The notes under the pieces are model-generated. The model saw only the letters and a program-made list of their open reading frames with translations. It was not told the origin of the DNA and searched no databases. A stretch of DNA of 38,166 nucleotides, from NCBI GenBank assembly GCA_902806205.1, contig CADCVR010000007.1, positions 1-38,166 of the forward strand, written 5' to 3'. Shown here piece after piece: positions 27,952 through 38,166 of the stretch. This DNA is from an uncultured Solirubrobacteraceae bacterium (GTDB taxonomy: Bacteria; Actinomycetota; Thermoleophilia; Solirubrobacterales; Solirubrobacteraceae). Made by a program: the position numbers and the translations under genes. Each line of letters opens with the position of its first letter. The stretch's first letter is position 1.

Positions 27952-28017
27952 GCCGCTACAACGCGCGGCACCGCCGAAAGCAACGCCGGCGGCGATGCCG
28001 CCGACCGGAGCGCTGGC

Positions 28018-28023
28018 TACGGT
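28018..28023 (+). promoter_or_regulatory. -10 element of scpA
   Basis: TACGGT ends 7 nt before the GTG at 28031. No ribosome site precedes the GTG, so scpA is probably read from a leaderless transcript. Confidence 0.45.
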
Positions 28024-28030
28024 TCCCCCT

Positions 28031-28840
28031 GTGGGCGCGACGATCGAGGAGCTCGAGCTGGACCTGGAGGTCTTCACGGGTCCCTTCGACCTGCTGCTGA
28101 CGCTCGTGCTGCGCGAGGAGGTCGACCTCCTGGAGGTGGAGCTCGCCGACGTGGTGATCTCCTACCTCGACGTCCTCGAGGCCCGCGGGGAGCTCGACCT
28201 GGGCGTCGCCACCGAGTTCCTCGTGCTCATCGCCGCGCTGCTGGAGCTCAAGTCACGGCTCATGCTCCCGCAGCCCGAGGAGGAGTTGCTCGAGGATCTC
28301 GCGCCGGACGAGGCCGCCGAGGAGCTCCTCGCCCGGATGCTGGAGGCCCGGCGCTACCGCCACGCCGCCGACCACCTTCGCGATCGGCTGGAAGGCGAGC
28401 GCGGCCATCGCTACCGCGCCGCGGCGCCGCCCCTCTTCCTGAAGCAGGTCGTGTCGCCCGATGCCGGCACCGCCCGGGCCGCCTACGACCCGGCGCAGCT
28501 CGGGGCCGCGGTCGGCGGACTGCTGCGCGTGCCCGAGCCGATCGCGCTCGACCACCTCGCCCTGGTCCGCGTCACGGTGGCCGAGCGCCTCGGCCACCTG
28601 CGGGAGTTGCTGCGGCGCGGCGCCTGCACGTTCACCGAGGCGGTCGGGGACGCCGACCGCGTGACGGTCGCGGTGACGCTCTTCAGCCTGCTCGAGCTCT
28701 ACAAGCAGGGCGAGGCCACGTGGACGCAGGACGGCCCGTTCGCCGAGATCCACATCGCGCCGCGTCGGCCCGTCGGCGTCCCGGAGGCCCAGTCTGAGGT
28801 GCGTGAGCCGATCCGGTCGCTCGCGGGGCGCGGAGGGTGA
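28031..28840 (+). CDS. scpA: Segregation and condensation protein ScpA
   Basis: 269 residues from the GTG at 28031. ScpA is the kleisin that bridges SMC heads in bacterial condensin. The N-terminal block LEVFTGPFDLLLTLVLREEVDLLEVELADVV and the following ATEFLVLIAALLELKSRLMLPQ are its signature; a winged helix at the C-terminus (VTVAVTLFSLLELYKQGEATWTQ) binds the SMC cap. It overlaps scpB by 4 bp, the usual arrangement. No smc gene lies in the window. Confidence 0.93.
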   Translation: MGATIEELELDLEVFTGPFDLLLTLVLREEVDLLEVELADVVISYLDVLEARGELDLGVATEFLVLIAALLELKSRLMLPQPEEELLEDLAPDEAAEELLARMLEARRYRHAADHLRDRLEGERGHRYRAAAPPLFLKQVVSPDAGTARAAYDPAQLGAAVGGLLRVPEPIALDHLALVRVTVAERLGHLRELLRRGACTFTEAVGDADRVTVAVTLFSLLELYKQGEATWTQDGPFAEIHIAPRRPVGVPEAQSEVREPIRSLAGRGG

Positions 28841-29439
28841 GCGACGAGCTGACGCGGCAGCTCGAGGCGCTGCTGTTCCTCTCCCCCGAGCCCGTCACCC
28901 ACGCTGAGCTGCTCGCGGCGCTCGAGTGCGCGCCGGATGAGCTCGGCCTCGCGCTGGCCGCCCTCCGCCGGGCCTACGCGCCCGGGCAGCGCGGAATCGA
29001 GCTCAGGGAGGTCGCGGGAGGACTGACCTTCTCGAGCGCACCGGAAGCCGAGGATGCCGCCCGCCGCCTGCTGGCCAAGCCGCGCACGCCGGCGCTGACC
29101 CCCGCCCAGGCCGAGACGCTCTCGATCGTCGCCTACCTGCAGCCCGTGTCGCGTCCGGAGATCACGCGCATCCGCGGCGTCTCGGCCGACTCGGCCTCCT
29201 CGACGCTGCTCGAGCGCGGGCTCATCGAGGAGGCCGGCCGCTCGCAGTTCGGCGCGGTGCTCTACCGCACGACGCCGCTCTTCTTGAAGCTCTTCGGCCT
29301 CACGGCGCTCTCCGACCTGCCGGAGGTCGCCGAGTGGGATCCGACGCCCGAGGAGACCGCCGACCTCCGCGACCGCCTGCTGAGCGCCGGCGAGGCCCGC
29401 GCGGGCGGGCCGGTAGGCGCCGATCCGGCGGCGGATTGA
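28837..29439 (+). CDS. scpB: Segregation and condensation protein ScpB
   Basis: 200 residues starting at GTG 28837. ScpB is a dimer of tandem winged helices that binds the middle of ScpA. LEALLFLSPEPVTHAELLAAL, LRRAYAPGQRGIELREVAGG, ALTPAQAETLSIVAYLQPVSRPEITRIRGVSAD and RTTPLFLKLFGLTALSDLP follow in the family's order. In many actinobacteria an RluB-type gene follows directly; here it is displaced by about 2 kb of other sequence. Confidence 0.93.
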   Translation: MSDELTRQLEALLFLSPEPVTHAELLAALECAPDELGLALAALRRAYAPGQRGIELREVAGGLTFSSAPEAEDAARRLLAKPRTPALTPAQAETLSIVAYLQPVSRPEITRIRGVSADSASSTLLERGLIEEAGRSQFGAVLYRTTPLFLKLFGLTALSDLPEVAEWDPTPEETADLRDRLLSAGEARAGGPVGADPAAD

Positions 29440-29543
29440 GTCGCGCGACGCCGGCGTATTGCCTGCTCAGGTGGGTTGCGGCCATGGGGTCGCGGCCTCG
29501 CTGATCTGCGAACGGCCAAGCGACGGGCGGCTGACCGTCATCA

Positions 29544-29829
29544 AAGCTCGGCGAGGACGCGTTCGACAAGCTCTTCGCCGTGACGTCGCGGCCTTCCGGC
29601 GTCCGGGAACCGGTGCGCTGACCGCCGCACGTCGGCTGCTGCGCCCGGGCGGGACGCTGCACCCTCCCACCACGCCCCGGGATGGCGCGATCGGGAGGCG
29701 CCGGCCTCCTTCGTCGCCGCCCTCACCGCCACGCTCGCCGAGGGTGGATTCGCCGTCGAGGCCGCGGAGGCAACGTCCTCTGGCCCCGCAGTCAGCGTCC
29801 ATGTCCGGCGCTCGCATGACCGGCGCTGT
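29544..29829 (+). pseudogene. Decayed SAM-dependent methyltransferase
   Basis: The 441 bp between scpB and the S4 gene have no intact gene, but three pieces of one methyltransferase appear in successive frames. GEDAFDKLFAV comes first, then ALTAARRLLRPGGTL (the typical RPGG turn after motif III), then FVAALTATLAEGGFAVEAAEA with a final strand VSVHVRRSHD. At least two frameshifts separate them, and motif I is missing. Hence this is the 3' half of a dead gene. Bases 29440-29543 hold nothing I recognise. Confidence 0.6.
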
Positions 29830-29880
29830 CCCGGTTCCGGGCGGGCGCGCGACCCGCGGCGCGGGATCCGGTCGAGGAGC

Positions 29881-30276
29881 TCAGCGCCGGCCTCGCCGGG
29901 TTCCCGGCGTCGCCTCGAAGCGGCGTCGGTCGCGCTTGGTCGGCCGCGGGCCGCTCTGGCCCAGGGGCACGCCCGTGAGCTTCTGCTGGGCCGCGAAGCG
30001 CGCTCGCTCTTCCCGGCTGGCTTCGGTCTCGGCGTAGAGCAGCACGGCCTCCGCGGCCGGCCGGCGGTGGGCGGAGAGCCCCACGACCTCGACCGTGAAG
30101 CGTCCGTGCTCGGTGGAGATCCGCAGCTCGTCGCCGATCGCGACCTCCTTGCTGGGCTTCGTCCGCTGGCCGTCGAGCCGCACGAAGCCGCCCTTCACCG
30201 CGTCGACGGCGACCGCGCGCGTCTTGTAGAAGCGCGCGGCCCACAGCCACTTGTCCAGGCGAACGCCGGCTTCCAC
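29881..30276 (-). CDS. S4-domain RNA-binding protein (HslR/Hsp15-like)
   Basis: 131 residues. The first 50 residues are an S4 domain: VRLDKWLWAARFYKTRAVAVDAV, then GFVRLDGQRTKPSKEVAIGDEL. The rest is basic and Arg-rich (RPTKRDRRRFEA), as in Hsp15, which binds free 50S subunits carrying nascent-chain tRNA. It follows rlmN on the same strand with 20 bp between, so the two ribosome-related genes probably share a transcript. Confidence 0.85.
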   Translation of the reverse strand: MEAGVRLDKWLWAARFYKTRAVAVDAVKGGFVRLDGQRTKPSKEVAIGDELRISTEHGRFTVEVVGLSAHRRPAAEAVLLYAETEASREERARFAAQQKLTGVPLGQSGPRPTKRDRRRFEATPGTRRGRR

Positions 30277-30296
30277 GGCTCAGAGCCCAGCGGCGG

Positions 30297-31289
30297 TCAC
30301 GACGCACCCACGGCCGCCCTGGCCGCCAGCTGCCCGCAGGCAGCGTCGATGTCGCGCCCCATGGTCAGGCGGACCGTCGCGCGGATGCCGTGCTCCTCGA
30401 GCACTGCGCGGAAGCGCTCGATCGTCGCGCGCGGGGAGCCGTCGTACATCCCCGTCGGGTTGTAGGGGATGAGGTTGACCTTGTAGACCTTGGGGTCGAG
30501 CACCCCGGCGAGCTGCCGCGCGTGGGCCGCGCCGTCGTTGACGTCGCCCAGCATCACGTACTCGACGAACACCTGGCGGCGCTTGATCGCGTAGAAGCGC
30601 TCGCAGGCGGCGAGCACCTCCGAGAGCGGGTATCGGTCGTTGACCGGCATGATCTGCGAGCGCAGCCGGTCGTCGGCCGCGTGGAGCGAGAGGGCGAGCC
30701 GGATCGGCATGGTGGCGTGGGTCAGCGTCTCGATGCCGGGGATCCAGCCGACGGTGGAGATCGCCGTGCGCCGGTGGGTGACGCCGATCGACGGCAGCCG
30801 CCGGCACGTGTCCAGGACGTTCGGCAGGTTCATCATCGGCTCGCCCATGCCCATGAACACGACATGGTCGACCTCGTGATCCCGGCGGAAGTGCAGCGCC
30901 TGGTCGAGGATCTCGCCCGCGGTGAGGTTGCGGGTGAACTTCATCGCTCCCGTCGCGCAGAACGTGCAGGTCAACGGGCAGCCCGACTGCGAGGACAGGC
31001 ACAGCGAGTTGCGCCCGTCGCGGTAGCGCATGAGCACCGCCTCGACGGCGCGCCCGTCGTGGGTCGTGAACAGCGCCTTGACGGTGCCGTCGCTCGCGTG
31101 CGCCTCCCGGACGAGCTCGAGCGAGGAGAACGGCACCGCCGCGGCCAGCTCGCCGCGCAGGGCGGCCGGCACGTTGGACATCTCCTCGTAGGTTCGTGCG
31201 CCGCGGGCGGCCCACTCCCACACCTGACGCGCACGGAAGGCGGGTTGGCCCAGGCCGGCCAGCGTGCTCTCGAGGAGGACGGGGTCCAC
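30297..31289 (-). CDS. rlmN: 23S rRNA/tRNA adenine-C2 methyltransferase RlmN
   Basis: 330 residues from the GTG at 31289; a GTG at 31349 is also in frame and adds 20 residues of low similarity. RlmN is a radical-SAM enzyme that methylates A2503 of 23S rRNA and A37 of some tRNAs. The iron-sulfur motif C104-X3-C108-X2-C111 is present, along with FMGMGEPMMN, STVGWIPGI, LALSLHAADDRLRSQIMP and EYVMLGDVND. The catalytic Cys near the C-terminus is in IDAACGQLAA. It is divergent from the RluB-type gene. Confidence 0.94.
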   Translation of the reverse strand: MDPVLLESTLAGLGQPAFRARQVWEWAARGARTYEEMSNVPAALRGELAAAVPFSSLELVREAHASDGTVKALFTTHDGRAVEAVLMRYRDGRNSLCLSSQSGCPLTCTFCATGAMKFTRNLTAGEILDQALHFRRDHEVDHVVFMGMGEPMMNLPNVLDTCRRLPSIGVTHRRTAISTVGWIPGIETLTHATMPIRLALSLHAADDRLRSQIMPVNDRYPLSEVLAACERFYAIKRRQVFVEYVMLGDVNDGAAHARQLAGVLDPKVYKVNLIPYNPTGMYDGSPRATIERFRAVLEEHGIRATVRLTMGRDIDAACGQLAARAAVGAS

Positions 31290-31411
31290 CCGCCCATGGT
31301 GACAATCCGCGAGGAAACATGCGCGGAAACGATCACCAGTCGGCTCCACGGCTCGGCACTGCTGCCTGCGGTCGACTCCGGCGGCGCGGCGGGTCTGGGA
31401 GGCTCGGGGTG

Positions 31412-32161
31412 ATGCGGCTCGCCAAGCACCTCGCGCACGCCGGCGTCGCCTCGCGCCGCGCCTCCGAGCGGCTCGTCTTCGACGGGCGCGTCGAGGTCGA
31501 CGACGAGGTCGTCACCGATCCCGCGCGCGACGTGAGCGGGCGGGAGCGCATCCGCGTCGACGGCAAGACCCTGCGCGCCCACGAGCGCGGGGCCGACCGG
31601 GTCGTGTACCTGCTGCACAAGCCGCCCGGGGTCGTCTCGACCGCCAAGGACACCCATGGCCGCAAGACCGTCGTCGAGTTCGTGCGTTCGCCCGGCACGC
31701 GGCTGTACCCCGTCGGCCGCCTCGACGCGGACACCACCGGCCTGATCCTGCTGACCGACGACGGCGACCTCGCCCACCGCCTCACCCACCCGAGCTTCGA
31801 GGTGCCCAAGGTCTACGTCGCGGAAGTCGCGCACGGGCCCGTCCGCGAGCCTGCCCTGCGGCGGCTGCGGGAGGGCGTGAGCCTGGAGGACGGCATGACG
31901 TCCCCCGCCAAGGTCCGCCAGCTGCGCCAGGGCCTCCTCGAGCTGACGATCCACGAGGGCCGCAAGCGGCAGGTCAAGCGCATGTGCGCCGAGGTCGGCC
32001 ACCCCGTCAAGGCGCTGCAGCGGGTGGCCTACGGGCCGCTGCGCCTCGGCGACCTGGCCCAGGGCGGCGTCCGCAGGCTCTCCCCGGCCGAGGTCGAGCG
32101 GCTCAGGAGCGCGGGCGCCGAGCCCGGCGGCGCCACCGGGCGCGACGGGCGACGCGCCTGA
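31412..32161 (+). CDS. RluB/RsuA-family pseudouridine synthase
   Basis: 249 residues from the ATG at 31412 with GGGAGG 9 nt upstream. The S4 domain at the N-terminus (RLAKHLAHAGVASRRASERLV) precedes the synthase domain with VVYLLHKPPGVVST and the catalytic block YPVGRLDADTTGLILLTDDGDL, whose Asp attacks uracil. The block HEGRKRQVKRMCAEVGHPV is characteristic of the RsuA/RluB/RluE/RluF group. By its partner genes scpA-scpB it is most likely RluB, which modifies 23S rRNA. It precedes aroH by 13 bp. Confidence 0.92.
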   Translation: MRLAKHLAHAGVASRRASERLVFDGRVEVDDEVVTDPARDVSGRERIRVDGKTLRAHERGADRVVYLLHKPPGVVSTAKDTHGRKTVVEFVRSPGTRLYPVGRLDADTTGLILLTDDGDLAHRLTHPSFEVPKVYVAEVAHGPVREPALRRLREGVSLEDGMTSPAKVRQLRQGLLELTIHEGRKRQVKRMCAEVGHPVKALQRVAYGPLRLGDLAQGGVRRLSPAEVERLRSAGAEPGGATGRDGRRA

Positions 32162-32174
32162 CATCATCGCCGCG

Positions 32175-32540
32175 ATGCGCCTGTTCGCCCTCCGCGGAGC
32201 CAGTTCGGTCGAACGGAACGACGCCGAGGCGATCGTGGGGGCCACCGAACGGCTGATGCGCGAGATCATGGAGCGCAACCAGATCGGCCCCGACGACGTC
32301 GTCTCCTGCATCTTCACGCTGACCGACGATCTCGACGCCGAGTTCCCGGCGGTCGCCGCACGCAAGCTTGGCTTCGGGAAGGTGCCGCTGCTGTGCGCCC
32401 AGGAGATCCCCGTCCCGGGGGCGCTGGGGTCGGTCATCCGCGTGCTGATCCACTACCACGCCGACGAGCAGCACGCTGCCCGTCACGTCTACCTCGGCGA
32501 GGCGCGCGCGCTGCGCCAGGACCTCGAGGACGCGCAGTAG
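32175..32540 (+). CDS. aroH: Chorismate mutase, AroH type
   Basis: 121 residues, the size of the monofunctional trimeric AroH class. It turns chorismate into prephenate for Phe and Tyr. Residues matching the Bacillus enzyme's active site are visible: R7 in MRLFALRGA, E77 in CAQEIPVPG, R89 in VIRVLIHY and Y106 in HVYLGEA. The family's L-P-DDVVSxIFTLTDDLxAEFPAxAAR block is complete. It probably shares a transcript with the RluB-type gene. Confidence 0.93.
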   Translation: MRLFALRGASSVERNDAEAIVGATERLMREIMERNQIGPDDVVSCIFTLTDDLDAEFPAVAARKLGFGKVPLLCAQEIPVPGALGSVIRVLIHYHADEQHAARHVYLGEARALRQDLEDAQ

Positions 32541-32546
32541 CAGCGC

Positions 32547-32579
32547 GTACGACGTGTCGCGCGATGCCTCGTGTCGTAC
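32547..32579. promoter_or_regulatory. Inverted repeat in the gap after aroH
   Basis: GTACGAC (32547-32553) and GTCGTAC (32573-32579) are perfect 7-bp arms separated by 19 nt. They lie 40 bp before the next start, so this may be an operator of the following gene. No promoter elements are certain. Confidence 0.35.
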
Positions 32580-32618
32580 TACGGGCGACGGAACGTCACA
32601 CTACGGAAGGCGAATGAC

Positions 32619-32917
32619 ATGTTTGGCGAAACGCCCGAGCCGTCACCCGCGTCGCAGCCGGTCACGGACGACTCGATCCAGGTCCGCCATCTCAACCACT
32701 ACCAGTTCACCTGGGTGGCCGCCGGTGAGCCCGGCGCCCCGGGGATGTCACCCTGCAGCTGGTGCTCGACGAGGGCGCGTGGGAAGTGGTCGTGACGATC
32801 CACGCCGAGGATGCCGAAGTCCTCCAGGGCTTGCTGCGGTCCGCGAAGACCGTCTTCTATGACGTCCGTCGCCGCACGCTGATGTTCGGCACGACCCGGG
32901 TGGGCAAGGGCGGTTGA
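32619..32917 (+). pseudogene. Hypothetical protein gene with a frameshift in a G-run
   Basis: From the ATG at 32619 (GGAAGG upstream) the frame gives MFGETPEPSP and then HLNHYQFTWVAAGEPGAPG, but it drifts into an unlikely Cys/Arg/Ser tail ending at 32795. From the GGGG run at 32740-32743 another frame continues with DVTLQLVLDEGAWEVVVTIHAEDAEVLQGLLRS and ends at 32917. One extra G in the run would join them into about 100 residues. This can be a real mutation, a phase-variable tract or a sequencing error. I know no function for it; the protein looks small, soluble and beta-rich. Confidence 0.7.
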
Positions 32918-32974
32918 AGAACTTGCGCGGGCTCGGGCACAGAGGCCCGGGTTCGGGCACACCGGTGAGCAAGG

Positions 32975-32993
32975 CCGCGGCCGCCGGCCGCGG
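32975..32993. repeat. GC-rich perfect hairpin
   Basis: CCGCGGCC-GCC-GGCCGCGG, 8-bp arms. A second, weaker hairpin GCCG-N6-CGGC follows at about 33007-33020. Without T-runs, a termination role is uncertain. The rest of 32918-33047 shows only a direct repeat of GGGCTCGGGCACA / GGGTTCGGGCACA. Confidence 0.4.
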
Positions 32994-33047
32994 GGAGAGC
33001 AGCGCCGCTCAAACGGCGGCAGCCGTCGAAGGAGAGCGGCTCGATGC

Positions 33048-33311
33048 TCATCGGGCTCGACTGGGGCCGTGGCCGTCGGCCTGAACGACCCTTCCGGCGA
33101 CGAAGTCGCGCAGGCTCTCGTGGTCCTCGTGGCAGGCCGGGCAGCCGTCGAGGTGCTCCCGTATCCCGGGGAGCCGGGCGTCGGCATCGTCGCCCGCCGC
33201 GGTCGAGTCGGCCGCCCCCGCCGTGCGCCCTGCGACGGCGAGCAGTAGTGCAGGATGTTGTCGCGCGCGGCCGCCGGGGATGCGAAGGCGGCGGTGCCGG
33301 GCTCCCCGCAT
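33048..33311 (-). CDS. Possible zinc-finger anti-sigma-like ORF
   Basis: An 87-codon frame whose middle reads REHLDGCPACHEDHESLRDFVAG. H-X3-C-X2-C within a helix is the zinc-binding signature of anti-sigma (zf-HC2-like) proteins. The N-terminal 30 residues are Arg/Ala-rich and unlike any start of that family. The gene may therefore be truncated or frameshifted. No sigma factor is next to it. I list it because the motif is hard to get by chance in a shadow frame, but it may not be expressed. Confidence 0.35.
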   Translation of the reverse strand: MRGARHRRLRIPGGRARQHPALLLAVAGRTAGAADSTAAGDDADARLPGIREHLDGCPACHEDHESLRDFVAGRVVQADGHGPSRAR

Positions 33312-33440
33312 CGGACGCTCGACGAGGAATCGAGCGCTTGGCTGGCCGTGGTCGTGGTGGTCATGAAGCGATTGGCGTCGGTTGGCGCGTCGTCATTACC
33401 GAGGTTCGTCGCTTCGGTCCGCGGGCAGTCAGGCCGTGGA

Positions 33441-33899
33441 ATGGCGCGGGTGTTTGTGAGTGACGCATTGGCCGACGGGTTCGCAGCCGGCGGCTTCGCC
33501 GCACTGCTGAGCGGCGCCCCCTCGACGCTGCACGCCATCGTCGTGGGCGCCAGTCCACTGGAGGCGACGCTTGCCGCCGGAACGCTCGTCCTGCCGTGCG
33601 AGCGGCGCTTGCTGCCGCTGCTGCTGGCCGCCGTTCCGGCACACGCCGCGATCTCGCTGGGCTGGGGCGTCGCGCTCGCGCTTGTCCTACCAGCCCGGCG
33701 CACCGTGGGGGCCGGGGCGGTCGCCGGGCTGGCGATCGCGGCGCTCGACCTCGGCGTCGTCGCCCGGCGCTTCCCCCGCGTCCGCGCTTTGCCCGTGCGG
33801 CCCCAGCTCGCCGACCATGTCGTCTACGGGCTGGTCGTCGGTGCGGTCGTTGCTCGCCGGCGAGCGGCTCGCCGCGAGGTCGACGCGCACGGTCAGTAG
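33441..33899 (+). CDS. Small integral membrane protein
   Basis: 152 residues from the ATG at 33441; a longer frame from 33255 is Ala/Val-rich and doubtful. At least four hydrophobic stretches are seen: DGFAAGGFAALLSGAP, LHAIVVGASPLEATLAAGTLVL, LLPLLLAAVPAHAAISLGWGVALALVL and AGAVAGLAIAALDLGVVA, then a last one around HVVYGLVVGAVVA. The end is basic. I recognise no family. Its last 213 bp are overlapped by the opposite-strand reductase gene, so one of the two ends is probably not original. Confidence 0.6.
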   Translation: MARVFVSDALADGFAAGGFAALLSGAPSTLHAIVVGASPLEATLAAGTLVLPCERRLLPLLLAAVPAHAAISLGWGVALALVLPARRTVGAGAVAGLAIAALDLGVVARRFPRVRALPVRPQLADHVVYGLVVGAVVARRRAARREVDAHGQ

Positions 33900-34199
33900 A
33901 TCGGTGCCCATGGCGCGGACCACCGCGGCGTTGAAGCGCAGACCGATCCGCCTCTGGCGCTCGCGCGGATCGTCGTCGGGCAGCACCTCAGCGACACCGT
34001 CACGCCAGCCCCCGTGCACCCTGACGCGCACTCGTGGGTCAGCCTCGATGTTGCGCACGTAGCCGGCGCGCCGGCCATGCTCGGCCACGATCCAGAACGT
34101 GTCGCCGTCCAGCCCGTTGCCGACCGGCGTCCGACGCGGCTGCCTTGACTTCAGCTGCAGCTCCCGTTCGAAGCCACCGGCTTGTCGGAGCGGATCCAA
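33687..34199 (-). CDS. F420-dependent nitroreductase-like (DUF385) protein, altered at both ends
   Basis: The core QPRRTPVGNGLDGDTFWIVAEHGRRAGYVRNIEADPRVRVRV, followed by GVAEVLPDDDP and LLTVRVDL, matches the split-barrel family of deazaflavin (F420) dependent nitroreductases common in actinobacteria. They reduce small electrophiles with F420H2. Family members normally end soon after the last strand, at about position 33875 here. This frame runs on for some 60 unlikely residues through the membrane-protein gene. The N-terminus before the core seems shortened, and its first codons overlap the start of the Rep-like gene on the other strand. It may be a relic cut by insertion of the plasmid-like segment. 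Confidence 0.6.
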   Translation of the reverse strand: MDPLRQAGGFERELQLKSRQPRRTPVGNGLDGDTFWIVAEHGRRAGYVRNIEADPRVRVRVHGGWRDGVAEVLPDDDPRERQRRIGLRFNAAVVRAMGTDLLTVRVDLAASRSPASNDRTDDQPVDDMVGELGPHGQSADAGEAPGDDAEVERRDRQPGDRPGPHGAPGW

Positions 34200-34961
34200 G
34201 CCAACGGTTCGCTGAAGTTGACTCCCGACTACGACGTCTTCGCCTGGCTCTGCGAGCGCTGGCAGACCCGCCCCACCGAATCGGGATGGATGCGGCCCAC
34301 CCTCTACGAGCTCGGCTCGGCGCTCTACGACAGCGCACCCTCCGGCAAGGACTACCGGACCCTTCGCGAGTCCCTCGACCGCCTCGCCTGGGTGAACGTC
34401 ACCATCGACGGCTACGACATCGAGAGCGGCGCGTTCCGCGACAACTGGGTGTCGCGATCAAGCCTTCTCGAGCTCAGCCGGGCGACCGGGGATCCGCACG
34501 GACTGCAGCGTCCTGCGATCCAGCTGTCGGGCTGGCTGCGCCAGGCGCTCGCTGAGGAGAAGGTGGTCCGCGTGCACTGGCGCACGCTTCGGGCCTTCGA
34601 CGAGCGGCAGAAGCTGGCCAAGCGGCCGTGGCTCTACCTCGCGGCCGAGCGGTGGAAGAAGACCGGTCGCGAGACCGAGGGAACGTGGATTGCGTGCGGC
34701 GACCGCCTCGAGGCGGCCCTCGGGATGAGCTACGAGAGGCCGCGAGATGCACGCGCCGCCCTGAAGGCAACCTGCGTGACCGTGAGAAGGGTCGACCCGC
34801 GCTACTCGGCCGGCGAGCTCGACGTCGTGAAGCTCGGCACCTCATGGCGAGTGCAAGGAGAGCGTCCGACGTGGGACGTCTGGAAGGCTCAGGCACCGGA
34901 GCAGCTCCGTGTTCGCGACGAGATCCGGCGCTCGCTACGAGAGGGGAAGCGCCGCGCCTAA
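34182..34961 (+). CDS. Plasmid replication-initiator-like protein
   Basis: 259 residues from a TTG at 34182; no better start exists, so the 5' end may be lost at the junction with the reductase gene. The start of the protein proper seems to be LTPDYDVFAWLCERWQTRP. The order of helices and strands (LRESLDRLAWVNVTIDGYD, then RPWLYLAAERW and ALKATCVTVRRVDPRY) fits the tandem winged-helix layout of RepA/TrfA-type initiators. Family membership is not certain from sequence alone. The strongest support is the array of palindromic repeats that begins 11 bp after its stop. If it is Rep, it would bind them to start replication or to control its own copy number. Confidence 0.5.
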   Translation: MSERIQANGSLKLTPDYDVFAWLCERWQTRPTESGWMRPTLYELGSALYDSAPSGKDYRTLRESLDRLAWVNVTIDGYDIESGAFRDNWVSRSSLLELSRATGDPHGLQRPAIQLSGWLRQALAEEKVVRVHWRTLRAFDERQKLAKRPWLYLAAERWKKTGRETEGTWIACGDRLEAALGMSYERPRDARAALKATCVTVRRVDPRYSAGELDVVKLGTSWRVQGERPTWDVWKAQAPEQLRVRDEIRRSLREGKRRA

Positions 34962-34971
34962 CGCGCCTCAA

Positions 34972-35113
34972 CCTCACGCGAGGCACGGGGGTCCTCAAAC
35001 GAGGCAGCCAAGCCCCAACCTCGCCTGAGGTCGGGCATGCCTCACAAGAGGTCGCCAACCTCACAGGAGGCAGGTGGAACCTCGTCAGAGGTAGGGGGTG
35101 CCCGTTCGAGGCA
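34972..35113 (+). repeat. Iteron-like array of CCTC-N4-GAGG palindromes
   Basis: Six copies of CCTC-N4-GAGG start at 34972, 34993, 35019, 35040, 35059 and 35080. Starts are 21, 26, 21, 19 and 21 bp apart, close to two turns of the helix. A degenerate seventh (GTTCGAGGCA) ends at 35113. Four copies are preceded by AA, and each GAGG is followed by CA, TC or TA. The four middle bases differ in every copy, so this is selected half-site structure and not simple duplication. Iterons next to a rep gene are the hallmark of theta-type plasmid origins; operators for the following HTH gene are the alternative. Confidence 0.8.
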
Positions 35114-35148
35114 GGAAGGCGTCGGGCGGGCCCGAAACACTCTCCGTG

Positions 35149-35583
35149 ATGCACAGCTACACGCTGCGGGAAGCCGCCGAACTTTGCGACACCACGGTGA
35201 AGGCCCTGAGGAACAGGGCCGATCGTGGGTCGCTGCAGACTGTCCTCGTTGACGGAGAGCGTCGCGTGCCTCACGCCGAGCTCGAGCGCGCAGGGCTACT
35301 GCCCGGCGCCGAGCTCCGCGACCTGCGCCGCCGTGTCGAGCTGCTGAGCGACGAGCTCGCAACGTCCCGCCAGCTGGTCGTCTCAACCGAGCGAGCGGCC
35401 GAAGCTGAACGCGAGGCTCGAGAGCGTGCTGAGGCGGCGCTCTTTGAGCGTGAAGCCGCCGCGGCGGTGGCGATGGCCGCGGCTGACGAGCTCCGTGCCC
35501 TGGAGGCTGATCTGCGGGCGGCTGGCCCGATCAAGGCGTGGAAGCTTGCGCGGACGCGCCGCAGGGCCGCAGACGCGGCGTAG
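35149..35583 (+). CDS. HTH plus coiled-coil DNA-binding protein (MerR/KfrA-like)
   Basis: 144 residues from the ATG at 35149. Residues 1-50 form an excisionase/MerR-type winged helix (YTLREAAELCDTTVKALRNRADRG, then VDGERRVPHAELERAGLL). Residues 55-130 are a continuous heptad-like coiled coil rich in Ala, Glu and Arg (ELRDLRRRVELLSDELATSRQ onwards). This layout is like plasmid proteins such as KfrA that bind DNA and form filaments for segregation, or like small excisionase regulators. It follows the palindrome array, which may be its binding site. A 14-codon piece of it is repeated at 35787-35829. Confidence 0.65.
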   Translation: MHSYTLREAAELCDTTVKALRNRADRGSLQTVLVDGERRVPHAELERAGLLPGAELRDLRRRVELLSDELATSRQLVVSTERAAEAEREARERAEAALFEREAAAAVAMAAADELRALEADLRAAGPIKAWKLARTRRRAADAA

Positions 35584-35591
35584 GCCGCGGC

Positions 35592-35790
35592 TCAGGCGGT
35601 CGCGCGACTGCGGCGGCGCCTGGGTAGCGCGGGGAGGTCGGCGCGTGGCGCGGTGCCCGCTCGGCGTTTGTAGCCGGCGGCGCTTTGCACGGACGACACC
35701 CGCCACTGTGCGGCACCGCGCAGGGTGGGGGACACTCTCGGCGTTGAGGGCGTCGGCGATGGCCTGGTAGGTCAGCCCCCGCTCGCGGAG
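35592..35790 (-). pseudogene. Remnant of a serine recombinase C-terminus
   Basis: About 200 bp closely resemble the 3' end of the intact recombinase gene (36835-37036), including the stop codon TGA and the HTH coding stretch ELRERGLTYQAIADALNAE. Downstream of that the frame is shifted, though the DNA similarity goes on: TAGCGCGGGGAGGTCGGCGC and TAGCCGGCGGCGCTTTGCAC occur in both copies. The catalytic domain is absent. It is joined at its upstream end to a piece of the HTH gene at a GAGCTCGAG sequence. Confidence 0.8.
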
Positions 35791-35829
35791 CTCGAGCGGG
35801 CCGGCCTGCTGCCGGACGCCGAGCTGCAC
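35787..35829 (+). repeat. Repeated fragment of the HTH gene
   Basis: The codons for ELERAGLLPDAEL match ELERAGLLPGAEL of the HTH/coiled-coil gene (about 35278-35316), with most changes at third positions. The similarity stops at both ends against unrelated remnants. It is too short to have a function and marks a recombination event. Confidence 0.65.
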
Positions 35830-35832
35830 TTT

Positions 35833-35935
35833 TCAACTCATGGACCATCCCCGGTAGACGGCGAGGCGGGTGATCTTGTCGTCCTGGTCGATGGCAAAGA
35901 CGTCGACGAATCGGAACGATCCCGTGCTCTGGATG
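35833..35935 (-). pseudogene. C-terminal remnant of a SnoaL-like protein
   Basis: On the minus strand the last 30 codons before the TGA at 35833 read STGSFRFVDVFAIDQDDKITRLAVYRG, the closing strands of SnoaL/NTF2-like folds. The open frame continues further, but there it becomes the antisense of the riboswitch-like element and the Clp_N gene, so only the tail is real. It is the third broken gene piece within 250 bp. Confidence 0.55.
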
Positions 35936-36001
35936 GTCGCCTGTCGTAAGGCGGGGACGCAAAGCCACGGGGCCTTTAGGGTCGAGCCGGGTTGCCGCGA
36001 C
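35936..36001 (+). promoter_or_regulatory. c-di-GMP-I (GEMM) riboswitch-like element
   Basis: A 6-bp stem closed by a GTAA GNRA tetraloop (35940-35955) is followed by GACGCAAAGCC (35956-35966), then ACGGGGCC and CCGGGTTGCCG (35987-35997). These match the tetraloop, the ACGCAAAGCC core and the second-helix receptor of the c-di-GMP-I class. Flanking GTCG (35936-35939) and CGAC (35998-36001) could close the structure. The class also has a GGCAAAC-like joining segment before the first hairpin, which supplies a ligand-contacting guanine; I do not see it here. The 5' part may have been lost where the SnoaL remnant begins, or this is a variant. The Clp_N start is 28 nt downstream. Confidence 0.6.
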
Positions 36002-36028
36002 TGCAACCCAATGTCGAAGGAGTCCCCC

Positions 36029-36715
36029 ATGTTCGAGCGCTTCACAGAACGGGCCCGGCACGTCGTCGTCCTAGCGCAGGAGGAGGCCCGCATCCTCCAG
36101 CACAACGACATCGGCACCGAGCACATCCTGCTCGGCCTGCTCCGCGAGAAGGAGGGTCTTGCCGCGCGTGTGCTCGAGTCGCTCAACATCACCGTCGAGC
36201 GCGTGCGCGCGCAGGTGGTCCGGATCGCCGGCTCGGGCGGGGAATTCACCTCCGGGCAGATCCCCTTCACACCGCGCGCCAAGAAGGTGCTCGAGCTGGC
36301 GCCGCGCGAGGCCCTCAGACTCGGGCACAACTACATCGCCACCGAGCACATGCTGCTCGCGATCGCGCGCGAGAACGAGGGCGTCGCGGCGCGAATCCTG
36401 CTCGACTTCGACGCCGACTCCGAGAAGATCCGCGACAAGGTGATCATCCGCATGCTCTCGGGCCCCGGCGGGCGTCAGCGCTCGAGCGGTCGGCAGGACA
36501 TCGACGCCTCGGGGCAAGACGCCGTCTCGGCCAGCGAGGCCAAGCCGCCCGAAGTGGGTGGCCTCTCCGACGAGCAGATAACGGACCTGATCACCCAGCT
36601 CACTCAGCGCGAACAGGAGATCTCCTACGAGCGGAGGATCCTGCACGCCAAGATCGACATCCTGCGCTACGAACTAGTCAACCGCGCTGGGCGGCGGCAC
36701 CCGCCAGACTCGTAA
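36029..36715 (+). CDS. Stand-alone double Clp_N protein with RsiG-like c-di-GMP helix
   Basis: 228 residues from the ATG at 36029, with AAGGAG 6 nt upstream; an ATG at 36011 is also in frame. Residues 2-70 and 78-148 are two Clp_N repeats (FTERARHVVVLAQEEA, IGTEHILLGLL; FTPRAKKVLELAPREA, IATEHMLLAIA), as in the N-terminus of ClpC. There is no ATPase domain. After a linker, residues 180-220 form a helix with E195, S199, R202, H206 and D210, the spacing of the RsiG motif E(X)3S(X)2R(X)3Q(X)3D with His for Gln. In RsiG this motif binds c-di-GMP. An adaptor or substrate-binding protein for Clp gated by c-di-GMP is my inference. Confidence 0.85.
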   Translation: MFERFTERARHVVVLAQEEARILQHNDIGTEHILLGLLREKEGLAARVLESLNITVERVRAQVVRIAGSGGEFTSGQIPFTPRAKKVLELAPREALRLGHNYIATEHMLLAIARENEGVAARILLDFDADSEKIRDKVIIRMLSGPGGRQRSSGRQDIDASGQDAVSASEAKPPEVGGLSDEQITDLITQLTQREQEISYERRILHAKIDILRYELVNRAGRRHPPDS

Positions 36716-36834
36716 GCCCGCTCCCGCACGCGTCGAAAAGGAGTAGCAGCGTTGTTGTGCCCCTAGATCCGCTGGGGTTCGGAGGGCGATTCGGTGGCCG
36801 GAGCGGCACTAGCATCCGAACGACCGCCTTGAGG

Positions 36835-37536
36835 TCAGGCGGCGGCGATGCGTGTGCGGCGGCGTTTGGGTAGCGCGGGGAGGTCGGCGCGGGGCGTGGT
36901 GGTCGCGCGGCGTTGGTAGCCGGCGGCGCTTTGCACCGAGGAGACGCGCCACTGCTTGGCGCCGCGCAGGGTGGGGACTTGTTCGGCGTTGAGTGTGTTG
37001 GCGATCGCTTGGTAGGTGAGGCCGTCTTGGCGGAGCGCGTGGATCGTGTTGGCGAGTGGGCCGGTGACTGAGGGGCGGCTGATCGGTAGGCCTTGGGCTT
37101 TGCGGGCGGCGAGCGCGTCGCGGGTGCGTTCGCCGATGACCGAGCGTTCCCATTCGGCGACGGAGGCCATGACGTTGGCGACCAGGCGCCCGGAGCTTGT
37201 GCTGGTGTCCATGCCGAGGTCGAGCGCGACGAGCGTGGCGTTGGCGGAGTCGAACCATTCGAGCAGCTGGCCGAAGTCGACGACCGAGCGTGAGGCGCGG
37301 TCGAGCTTGGCGACGATGAGGCCGCCGGCCTTTCCGGCGGCGATCTGCTGCAGGGCGGTGTGGAGGGCGGGGCGGTCGAGGTTCTTGCCGGAGTGCCCCT
37401 CGTCGCGCGCGACATCGAGCAGCCTCCAGCCGCGGCGCTCGCATTCGGCGCGGATCGCCTTCTCTTGGGCGGCCAGGCCGTTGCCGGCGTCGGCTTGTTC
37501 TTGGGTGGAGCAGCGGGCGTAGCCGAGCGCGATCAC
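36835..37536 (-). CDS. Serine recombinase (resolvase/invertase family)
   Basis: 233 residues from the GTG at 37536. The N-terminal catalytic domain has the nucleophile S10 in YARCSTQEQ, DEGHSGKNLDRPAL and the arginines of AKLDRASRS, then the ERTRDALAARKAQG helix. The C-terminal HTH (LTYQAIANTLNAEQVP) and a basic tail bind DNA. It is the small resolvase type, found on plasmids, transposons and integrated elements. A duplicate of its 3' end lies at 35592-35790, so the two copies bracket the Clp_N gene as direct repeats in the same orientation. Bases 36716-36834 hold no gene. Confidence 0.92.
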   Translation of the reverse strand: MIALGYARCSTQEQADAGNGLAAQEKAIRAECERRGWRLLDVARDEGHSGKNLDRPALHTALQQIAAGKAGGLIVAKLDRASRSVVDFGQLLEWFDSANATLVALDLGMDTSTSSGRLVANVMASVAEWERSVIGERTRDALAARKAQGLPISRPSVTGPLANTIHALRQDGLTYQAIANTLNAEQVPTLRGAKQWRVSSVQSAAGYQRRATTTPRADLPALPKRRRTRIAAA

Positions 37537-37544
37537 GCCGCGCG

Positions 37545-37572
37545 ACGTTACGCAACGGGTCGGATGCGTAAA
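37545..37572 (-). promoter_or_regulatory. Recombinase promoter within an inverted repeat
   Basis: TTACGCA (37548-37554) and TGCGTAA (37565-37571) form perfect 7-bp arms around 10 nt. On the minus strand they overlap a promoter-like pair TTTACG, N16, TAACGT, which ends 8 nt before the GTG. This is the place and size expected for a recombinase binding site that also gives autoregulation. Confidence 0.5.
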
Positions 37573-37613
37573 CGACGGTCCCCAGAACAGGCGGCCTTCG
37601 GAGGCGCCTATCT

Positions 37614-38166
37614 CTATCGCGCGTCCTCATCTGCGGCGCGGCTTTGGGCTTTCCGTCGCTGTCGGCGCCACCTCTTGGCCCGCGCGGCGATCAGCGGTCG
37701 GGCGTACCCGAGCCGCGAGAGGGCCACTGTCTTGCGGTAGTCCTTGCCGCGTGCGTCGGTGTCCCACTCGACAAAAGAGCGGCCAGCTAGCTCGGCTATC
37801 AGAGCACCGCGCGCTTCATGGTCGCGCTCGAGCGCGGCCAGCATGGCGAGCTCCTTCAGCGACGCCACGGCGTGCCAGCCTTCTCCGGTGGTTGCGTGGC
37901 CGAAAGCTGCGCGAGCTTCAGCGCGGTCGCCTCGCGAAAAGTGCAGCAGGCAGCCGAGGAGGTAGCTGGCGTATGTGCTGCGCTCGAAGGTTTCTGCGGC
38001 AATTGCCGCGCGCAACGCTTGCTCTTCCTCTTCTTCGCGCCCGGCTTGGCATCCAAGCGTGACGGCCAGCTCAAGCCAGGCGGCGTCTTGACCGGCGTCG
38101 ACCGCGCGTCGGAAGGCGGCCTCTGCGGCTTTGATCTTTCCTGGCTCGTCGGCGAGGGCGAGGCCT
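37614..38166 (-). CDS. TPR-like repeat protein, 5' end outside the window
   Basis: The frame is open from the right window edge to the stop at 37614, 183 residues. Pairs of helices recur about every 34-38 residues with small residues at TPR positions: AAEAAFRRAVDAGQDAAWLELAV, ALRAAIAAETFERSTYASYLLGCLLHFSRGDRAEARAAFGHA and HAVASLKELAMLAALERDHEARGALIAEL. Such proteins are scaffolds for protein contacts; no partner is indicated. The end is basic (KRWRRQRRKAQSRA). It lies upstream of the recombinase on the same strand, 77 bp apart. Confidence 0.7.
   Translation of the reverse strand, partial: GLALADEPGKIKAAEAAFRRAVDAGQDAAWLELAVTLGCQAGREEEEEQALRAAIAAETFERSTYASYLLGCLLHFSRGDRAEARAAFGHATTGEGWHAVASLKELAMLAALERDHEARGALIAELAGRSFVEWDTDARGKDYRKTVALSRLGYARPLIAARAKRWRRQRRKAQSRAADEDAR

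Follow-up and report, generated by a model that had tools for sequence, protein, structure and literature searches.

This locus raises the question of what is served by six perfect CCTC-N4-GAGG palindromes that stand at 34972–35091, between a replication initiator (rep) gene and a helix-turn-helix (HTH) gene, in the 38,166-nucleotide stretch of DNA analysed here (the window). An initial annotation had reported six such palindromes, with five spacings of 19–26 bp, three of them exactly 21 bp, and had proposed that a dimeric protein binds them on one face of the DNA and that, together with the Rep-like gene upstream, they may form the origin of a plasmid of a so far unassigned family, now lying in the chromosome. 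Exact sites were found at all six positions (starts at 34972, 34993, 35019, 35040, 35059 and 35080), with successive spacings of 21, 26, 21, 19 and 21 bp. Taken in pairs, they read CCTC-ACGC-GAGG (34972–34983) and CCTC-AAAC-GAGG (34993–35004) in pair A, CCTC-GCCT-GAGG (35019–35030) and CCTC-ACAA-GAGG (35040–35051) in pair B, and CCTC-ACAG-GAGG (35059–35070) and CCTC-GTCA-GAGG (35080–35091) in pair C. A degenerate seventh site, GCCC-GTTC-GAGG (35101–35112), follows 21 bp past the sixth with its right half intact.

The array is far above chance expectation. The whole window should hold 1.9 copies of the motif, and six sites within 130 bp were seen in none of 300 window shuffles, in which the maximum was three; when any 4-bp palindrome family was allowed, the largest cluster in 60 shuffles was five. 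In the 3.38-Mb genome from which the window comes, the array is the sole cluster of CCTC-N4-GAGG. Identity among the six sites is 100% in the half-sites, as compared with 32% in the loops and 31% (near random) in the outer flanks, confirming that the half-sites are kept while the middle bases vary; all 48 half-site bases are invariant, and loops and spacers are as divergent as random DNA. Judged from sequence, this combination of fixed half-sites with random-looking loops and spacers is as expected for protein-binding sites. Searching the array DNA against plasmids, as had been suggested, gave no match, and a pattern scan for CCTC-N4-GAGG across genomes of 84,980 species, together with viral contigs, listed many matches, the number for the genomes being a lower bound. 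Other multi-copy arrays among the matches listed mostly had near-identical loops and regular spacing, as plain tandem repeats do, and none of those fetched lay near a rep gene or a clear HTH relative. That our array is likewise a neutral tandem repeat without a binding protein is scarcely credible, given random-like loops and spacers here against near-identical loops elsewhere, and 48 half-site bases held fixed.

The array is best divided, on its sequence, into three double sites, with 21 bp inside the pairs and 26 and 19 bp between them. These 39-nt double-palindrome units begin at 34969, 35016 and 35056 and show a mutual likeness of 64–72%. With 10.5 bp to the helical turn, the seven sites are centred at phases of 0, 0, 0.48, 0.48, 0.29, 0.29 and 0.29; pair members are thus in register and the pairs mutually out of register, so that no single DNA face carries the whole array. 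Of the proposed dimeric protein on a single face, the dimer-type pattern stands and the single face does not.

Palindromes may also act in RNA, as hairpins between the rep and HTH genes that attenuate or stabilise a transcript, and the array region does fold better than its own shuffles (z −3.95). However, any palindromic array would fold well, the stems are invariant in sequence rather than carrying paired changes, and no terminator was found; we therefore regard action at the RNA level as very unlikely. No promoter was recognised either.

The strongest candidate for a binding protein is the product of the HTH gene itself (35149–35583, forward strand), whose start codon lies 57 bp beyond the last full site. 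This 144-residue protein matches HTH_17 and was modelled with high confidence (pLDDT 93.7) as a MerR/Xis-type winged helix (residues 1–50), a long helix (54–124) and a C-terminal helix (127–143). Its nearest folds are Xis, BldC, RdfS, pSK1 Par and RacA (Z about 6–8 over about 50 residues), structural matches by which only the fold class of the model is established. All six HTH family members, the window protein included, match HTH_17 and align along their length. In Pfam the protein matches HTH_17/MerR only, without the KfrA N-terminal domain or the C-terminal region DUF536, and it found no matches among plasmids and viral contigs. Symmetric sites suit a symmetric dimer, and a protein with an HTH and a 70-residue helix directly downstream of the array is a plausible binder. 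On balance we favour reading the array as a multi-site operator of the 35149–35583 protein, and perhaps in addition as its centromere-like site, within the remnant of an integrative plasmid. Against this operator reading count the lack of a recognised promoter and of an adjoining ParA-type partner, none being apparent by eye among the open reading frames of 28000–38166.

The gene upstream of the array (34149–34961, forward strand, with a possible TTG start at 34182) is, on modelled structure, a theta-type initiator with two winged helices like those of pi and RepE. It matches the Pfam RPA family (PF10134) at E = 5e-5 and 23.4–23.8 bits, below the curated cut-off of 27 bits, as do its relatives (18–23 bits, all under the cut-off); affinity to the RPA initiators is to that extent weak. 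The model, with a pLDDT of only 70, aligns to pi (Z 10.8, rmsd 4.3, 188 residues) and to RepE54 and RctB (Z 9–10). Match and fold together uphold the earlier description of the gene as Rep-like. It shares the modelled two-winged-helix fold with the Rep_3-type iteron initiators pi and RepE, and its relatives have iteron-like repeats; it differs from them in having no sequence match, a truncated 5′ end and no upstream iterons.

That truncation can be placed closely. The profile of the rep family aligns to the window gene from position 35 only. On the reverse strand, a gene resembling F420H2-dependent quinone reductases (33687–34199; PF04075) is also 5′-truncated: its homologues have about 38 extra N-terminal residues, mostly ending ..TGR, that are missing here, and the homology ends at 34149–34151. 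Within a few bases (34146–34154), homology to the reductase ceases and homology to rep sets in, and an in-frame TGA at 34146–34148 immediately precedes the rep frame; on the rep side, the exact position depends on a brief LQLALP-like similarity to relative L007. As both homologies end near 34150, we infer a recombination junction (or an assembly chimera) there, at which the rep 5′ end and any upstream iterons would have been lost. No direct-repeat iterons were found upstream of the window rep, where that region is missing; the palindromes might take their place.

Relatives of rep were recovered with profile searches, single-sequence searches of genome, viral, plasmid and phage collections having given nothing useful. 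The rep family profile found 17 of 399 genomes of the host's class, including the window's own. The rep and HTH families adjoin in L220 (where the HTH gene is inverted), L221, L225 and L226, as they do in the window, which counts in favour of an operator for the HTH protein. A HicA gene follows the HTH gene in L221 and L225, with a HicB gene too in L221, and the L225 rep matches 'replication initiator protein A' on two Deinococcus plasmids. We also observed that the 5.7-kb contig L221 (1–5735), whose ends are identical over 15 bp, carries rep, iterons, HicAB, a pair of HTH-family genes and recombinase-like sequence, and is possibly a whole small plasmid. In L006, a ParA-like frame lies by the rep relative, with CCTAG/CTAG repeats between them at 1330–1420 that are a possible partition site.

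In the main rival to the operator reading, the array is the rep-binding set of the origin, lying on the 3′ side of rep as either iterons or a dimer operator, at which Rep binds to start or limit replication. We regard this as possible, at a tentative level. It draws on the modelled fold that the window rep shares with the iteron-binding initiators pi, RepE54 and RctB, on the binding of RepE dimers to an operator (entry 2z9o), on a spacing that fits iterons, for which 21–22 bp is typical, and on direct repeats just after rep in four distant members of the family (L231, L232, L234 and L236); spacing and repeats also count against the HTH protein as binder. However, six palindromic operators 3′ of the gene would be unusual, and the repeats of distant and close relatives alike are asymmetric direct repeats rather than palindromes. 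At 10 of 20 other rep loci, yet not in the window, an 8-mer was repeated above all of 40 single-base shuffles, and in the nearest relatives the asymmetric direct repeats upstream of rep are likely, from their sequence, to be the rep iterons, unlike the palindromes of the window; this counts for the HTH protein. By eye, tRNA 3′-like sequence was also seen upstream in L232, L234 and L236, where ARAGORN found no complete tRNA. The proposed plasmid origin for a locus now in the chromosome thus fares unevenly: descent from a plasmid or integrative element, lying among chromosomal genes, is upheld, while the array as replication origin is doubtful, since relatives have their likely iterons, which are asymmetric direct repeats, mostly on the upstream side of rep, a part missing here.

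If the array serves the HTH protein, comparable arrays might be sought at HTH genes, and ten of these were examined for over-represented 6- and 7-mers. Around the HTH gene of L218 lie eight GGGGAC half-sites, as many as which occurred in none of 200 shuffles; the half-site extends to AGGGGAC and includes the 7-N4-7 palindrome GTCCCCT-CGGC-AGGGGAC, whose spacer is N4 as in the window. In the window, where the array itself is matched in 0 of 300 shuffles, the wider stretch was marginal (0.03), and the GC-rich L222 was borderline (0.025). The other seven genes, L221 and L225 among them, showed no significant over-representation. L221 has GAGGC-A-GCCTC twice, a half-site resembling that of the window, at a count that is not significant; GAGTC repeats in L225, suspected of being an array, were not significant and were set aside. 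Nearly all listed genomes of genus g65 (L173–L190) have two HTH-family paralogues, and no palindrome array was found upstream of these. The check whether homologues of the upstream gene ever have such arrays gave a mixed answer: no CCTC-N4-GAGG array occurs at the other rep loci examined, whereas an HTH relative, L218, has a significant array of its own, with a different palindromic half-site, around the HTH gene. The L218 array supports the HTH protein as binder, and the lack of any HTH relative with six regular palindromes weighs against it.

Several known systems resemble this arrangement. In the IncU plasmid RA3, KfrA binds a set of five 9-bp repeats located at the promoter of its own gene, and the repeats are needed for plasmid maintenance (PMC7783346). 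The likeness lies in an HTH head with a long helical tail, a repetitive operator at the protein's own promoter and a role in plasmid maintenance (PMC7783346); the differences are that the RA3 operator consists of five 9-bp repeats and that the window protein has no KfrA Pfam match and a much shorter tail. RacA and pSK1 Par combine a MerR-type winged HTH with a coiled coil and bind repeated sites (PMC11500499). With pSK1 Par, RacA and RocS the window protein shares a predicted winged HTH and long helix (fold matches 8csh and 5i44), but the match is at fold level only (Z about 6, 48–58 residues) and DUF536 is lacking. By analogy, we think that the window protein works like KfrA, RacA and pSK1 Par, yet by sequence it belongs with none of them. 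Actinomycete integrative and conjugative elements (AICEs), which are marked by an FtsK/SpoIIIE-type transfer gene alongside rep and int, likewise bring rep, a small HTH gene and a recombinase gene near each other, as in relatives of the window, whose family differs in having another rep type and a long-helix HTH protein.

In a further alternative, the HTH protein would be a directionality factor of the excisionase type, with the array belonging to an attachment region. The protein's fold does match Xis proteins and RdfS, and HTH relatives adjoin tyrosine recombinases, as xis does in AICEs: one is next to the HTH gene in L141 (which coincides with L220), another beside the relative L143/L218, and by eye a tyrosine-recombinase-like stretch follows in L221 and L225. 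No such enzyme was seen at the array itself, and we consider a recombination role very unlikely. To our knowledge, long palindrome arrays are not usual as Xis sites and a long helix is unusual for Xis.

To the right of the HTH gene, a second HTH-family gene survives as 16 codons (35779–35826, forward strand; translation PLAELERAGLLPDAEL), 81% identical to 35269–35315. It abuts a duplicated 3′ piece of a serine recombinase gene (35595–35794, reverse strand; 84% and 75% identity to 36841–37039); the source of this piece of about 200 bp is the serine recombinase gene at 36835–37536, and the copies flank a riboswitch gene. There, at 35925–36715, a c-di-GMP-I riboswitch (35.9 bits, cut-off 35) immediately precedes a Clp_N repeats/RsiG-like fusion gene, whose Clp_N part shares about 80% identity with the opening of an 885-codon frame in two same-genus genomes. 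The F420 enzyme and the RsiG domain are actinobacterial traits and point to a host within Actinomycetota. With its truncated rep, a second HTH gene cut to 16 codons by a recombinase fragment, and chromosomal genes at its left (including scpB and rlmN), the locus is probably the remnant of an integrative plasmid.

Under the favoured operator reading, we infer the identity of the binder, its dimerisation, repression and partition as follows. The MerR-type winged helix would read one GAGGY half-site, and the long helix would hold the protein as a dimer, one dimer filling one palindrome. Two dimers might join on palindromes 21 bp apart, and the three double sites could thereby nucleate a large nucleoprotein complex. 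As the last full site lies so close to the start codon, the protein, once bound, would repress its own gene. In the intact plasmid, array and protein may have aided stable inheritance, in the manner of pSK1 Par, RacA or KfrA.

A bolder proposal, which we hold to be rather unlikely as it stands, is that these genes represent a new single-protein module for plasmid partition or copy control, in which a MerR-type long-helix protein and system-specific arrays of palindromic half-sites are coupled to RPA-like iteron replicons in integrative plasmids of the host's class. The favoured operator reading, if right, would define the rep–HTH module in small integrative replicons of a group that has been little studied and, with identical repeated half-sites and one candidate protein, would offer a clean test case for the assembly of long-helix winged HTH proteins on arrays.
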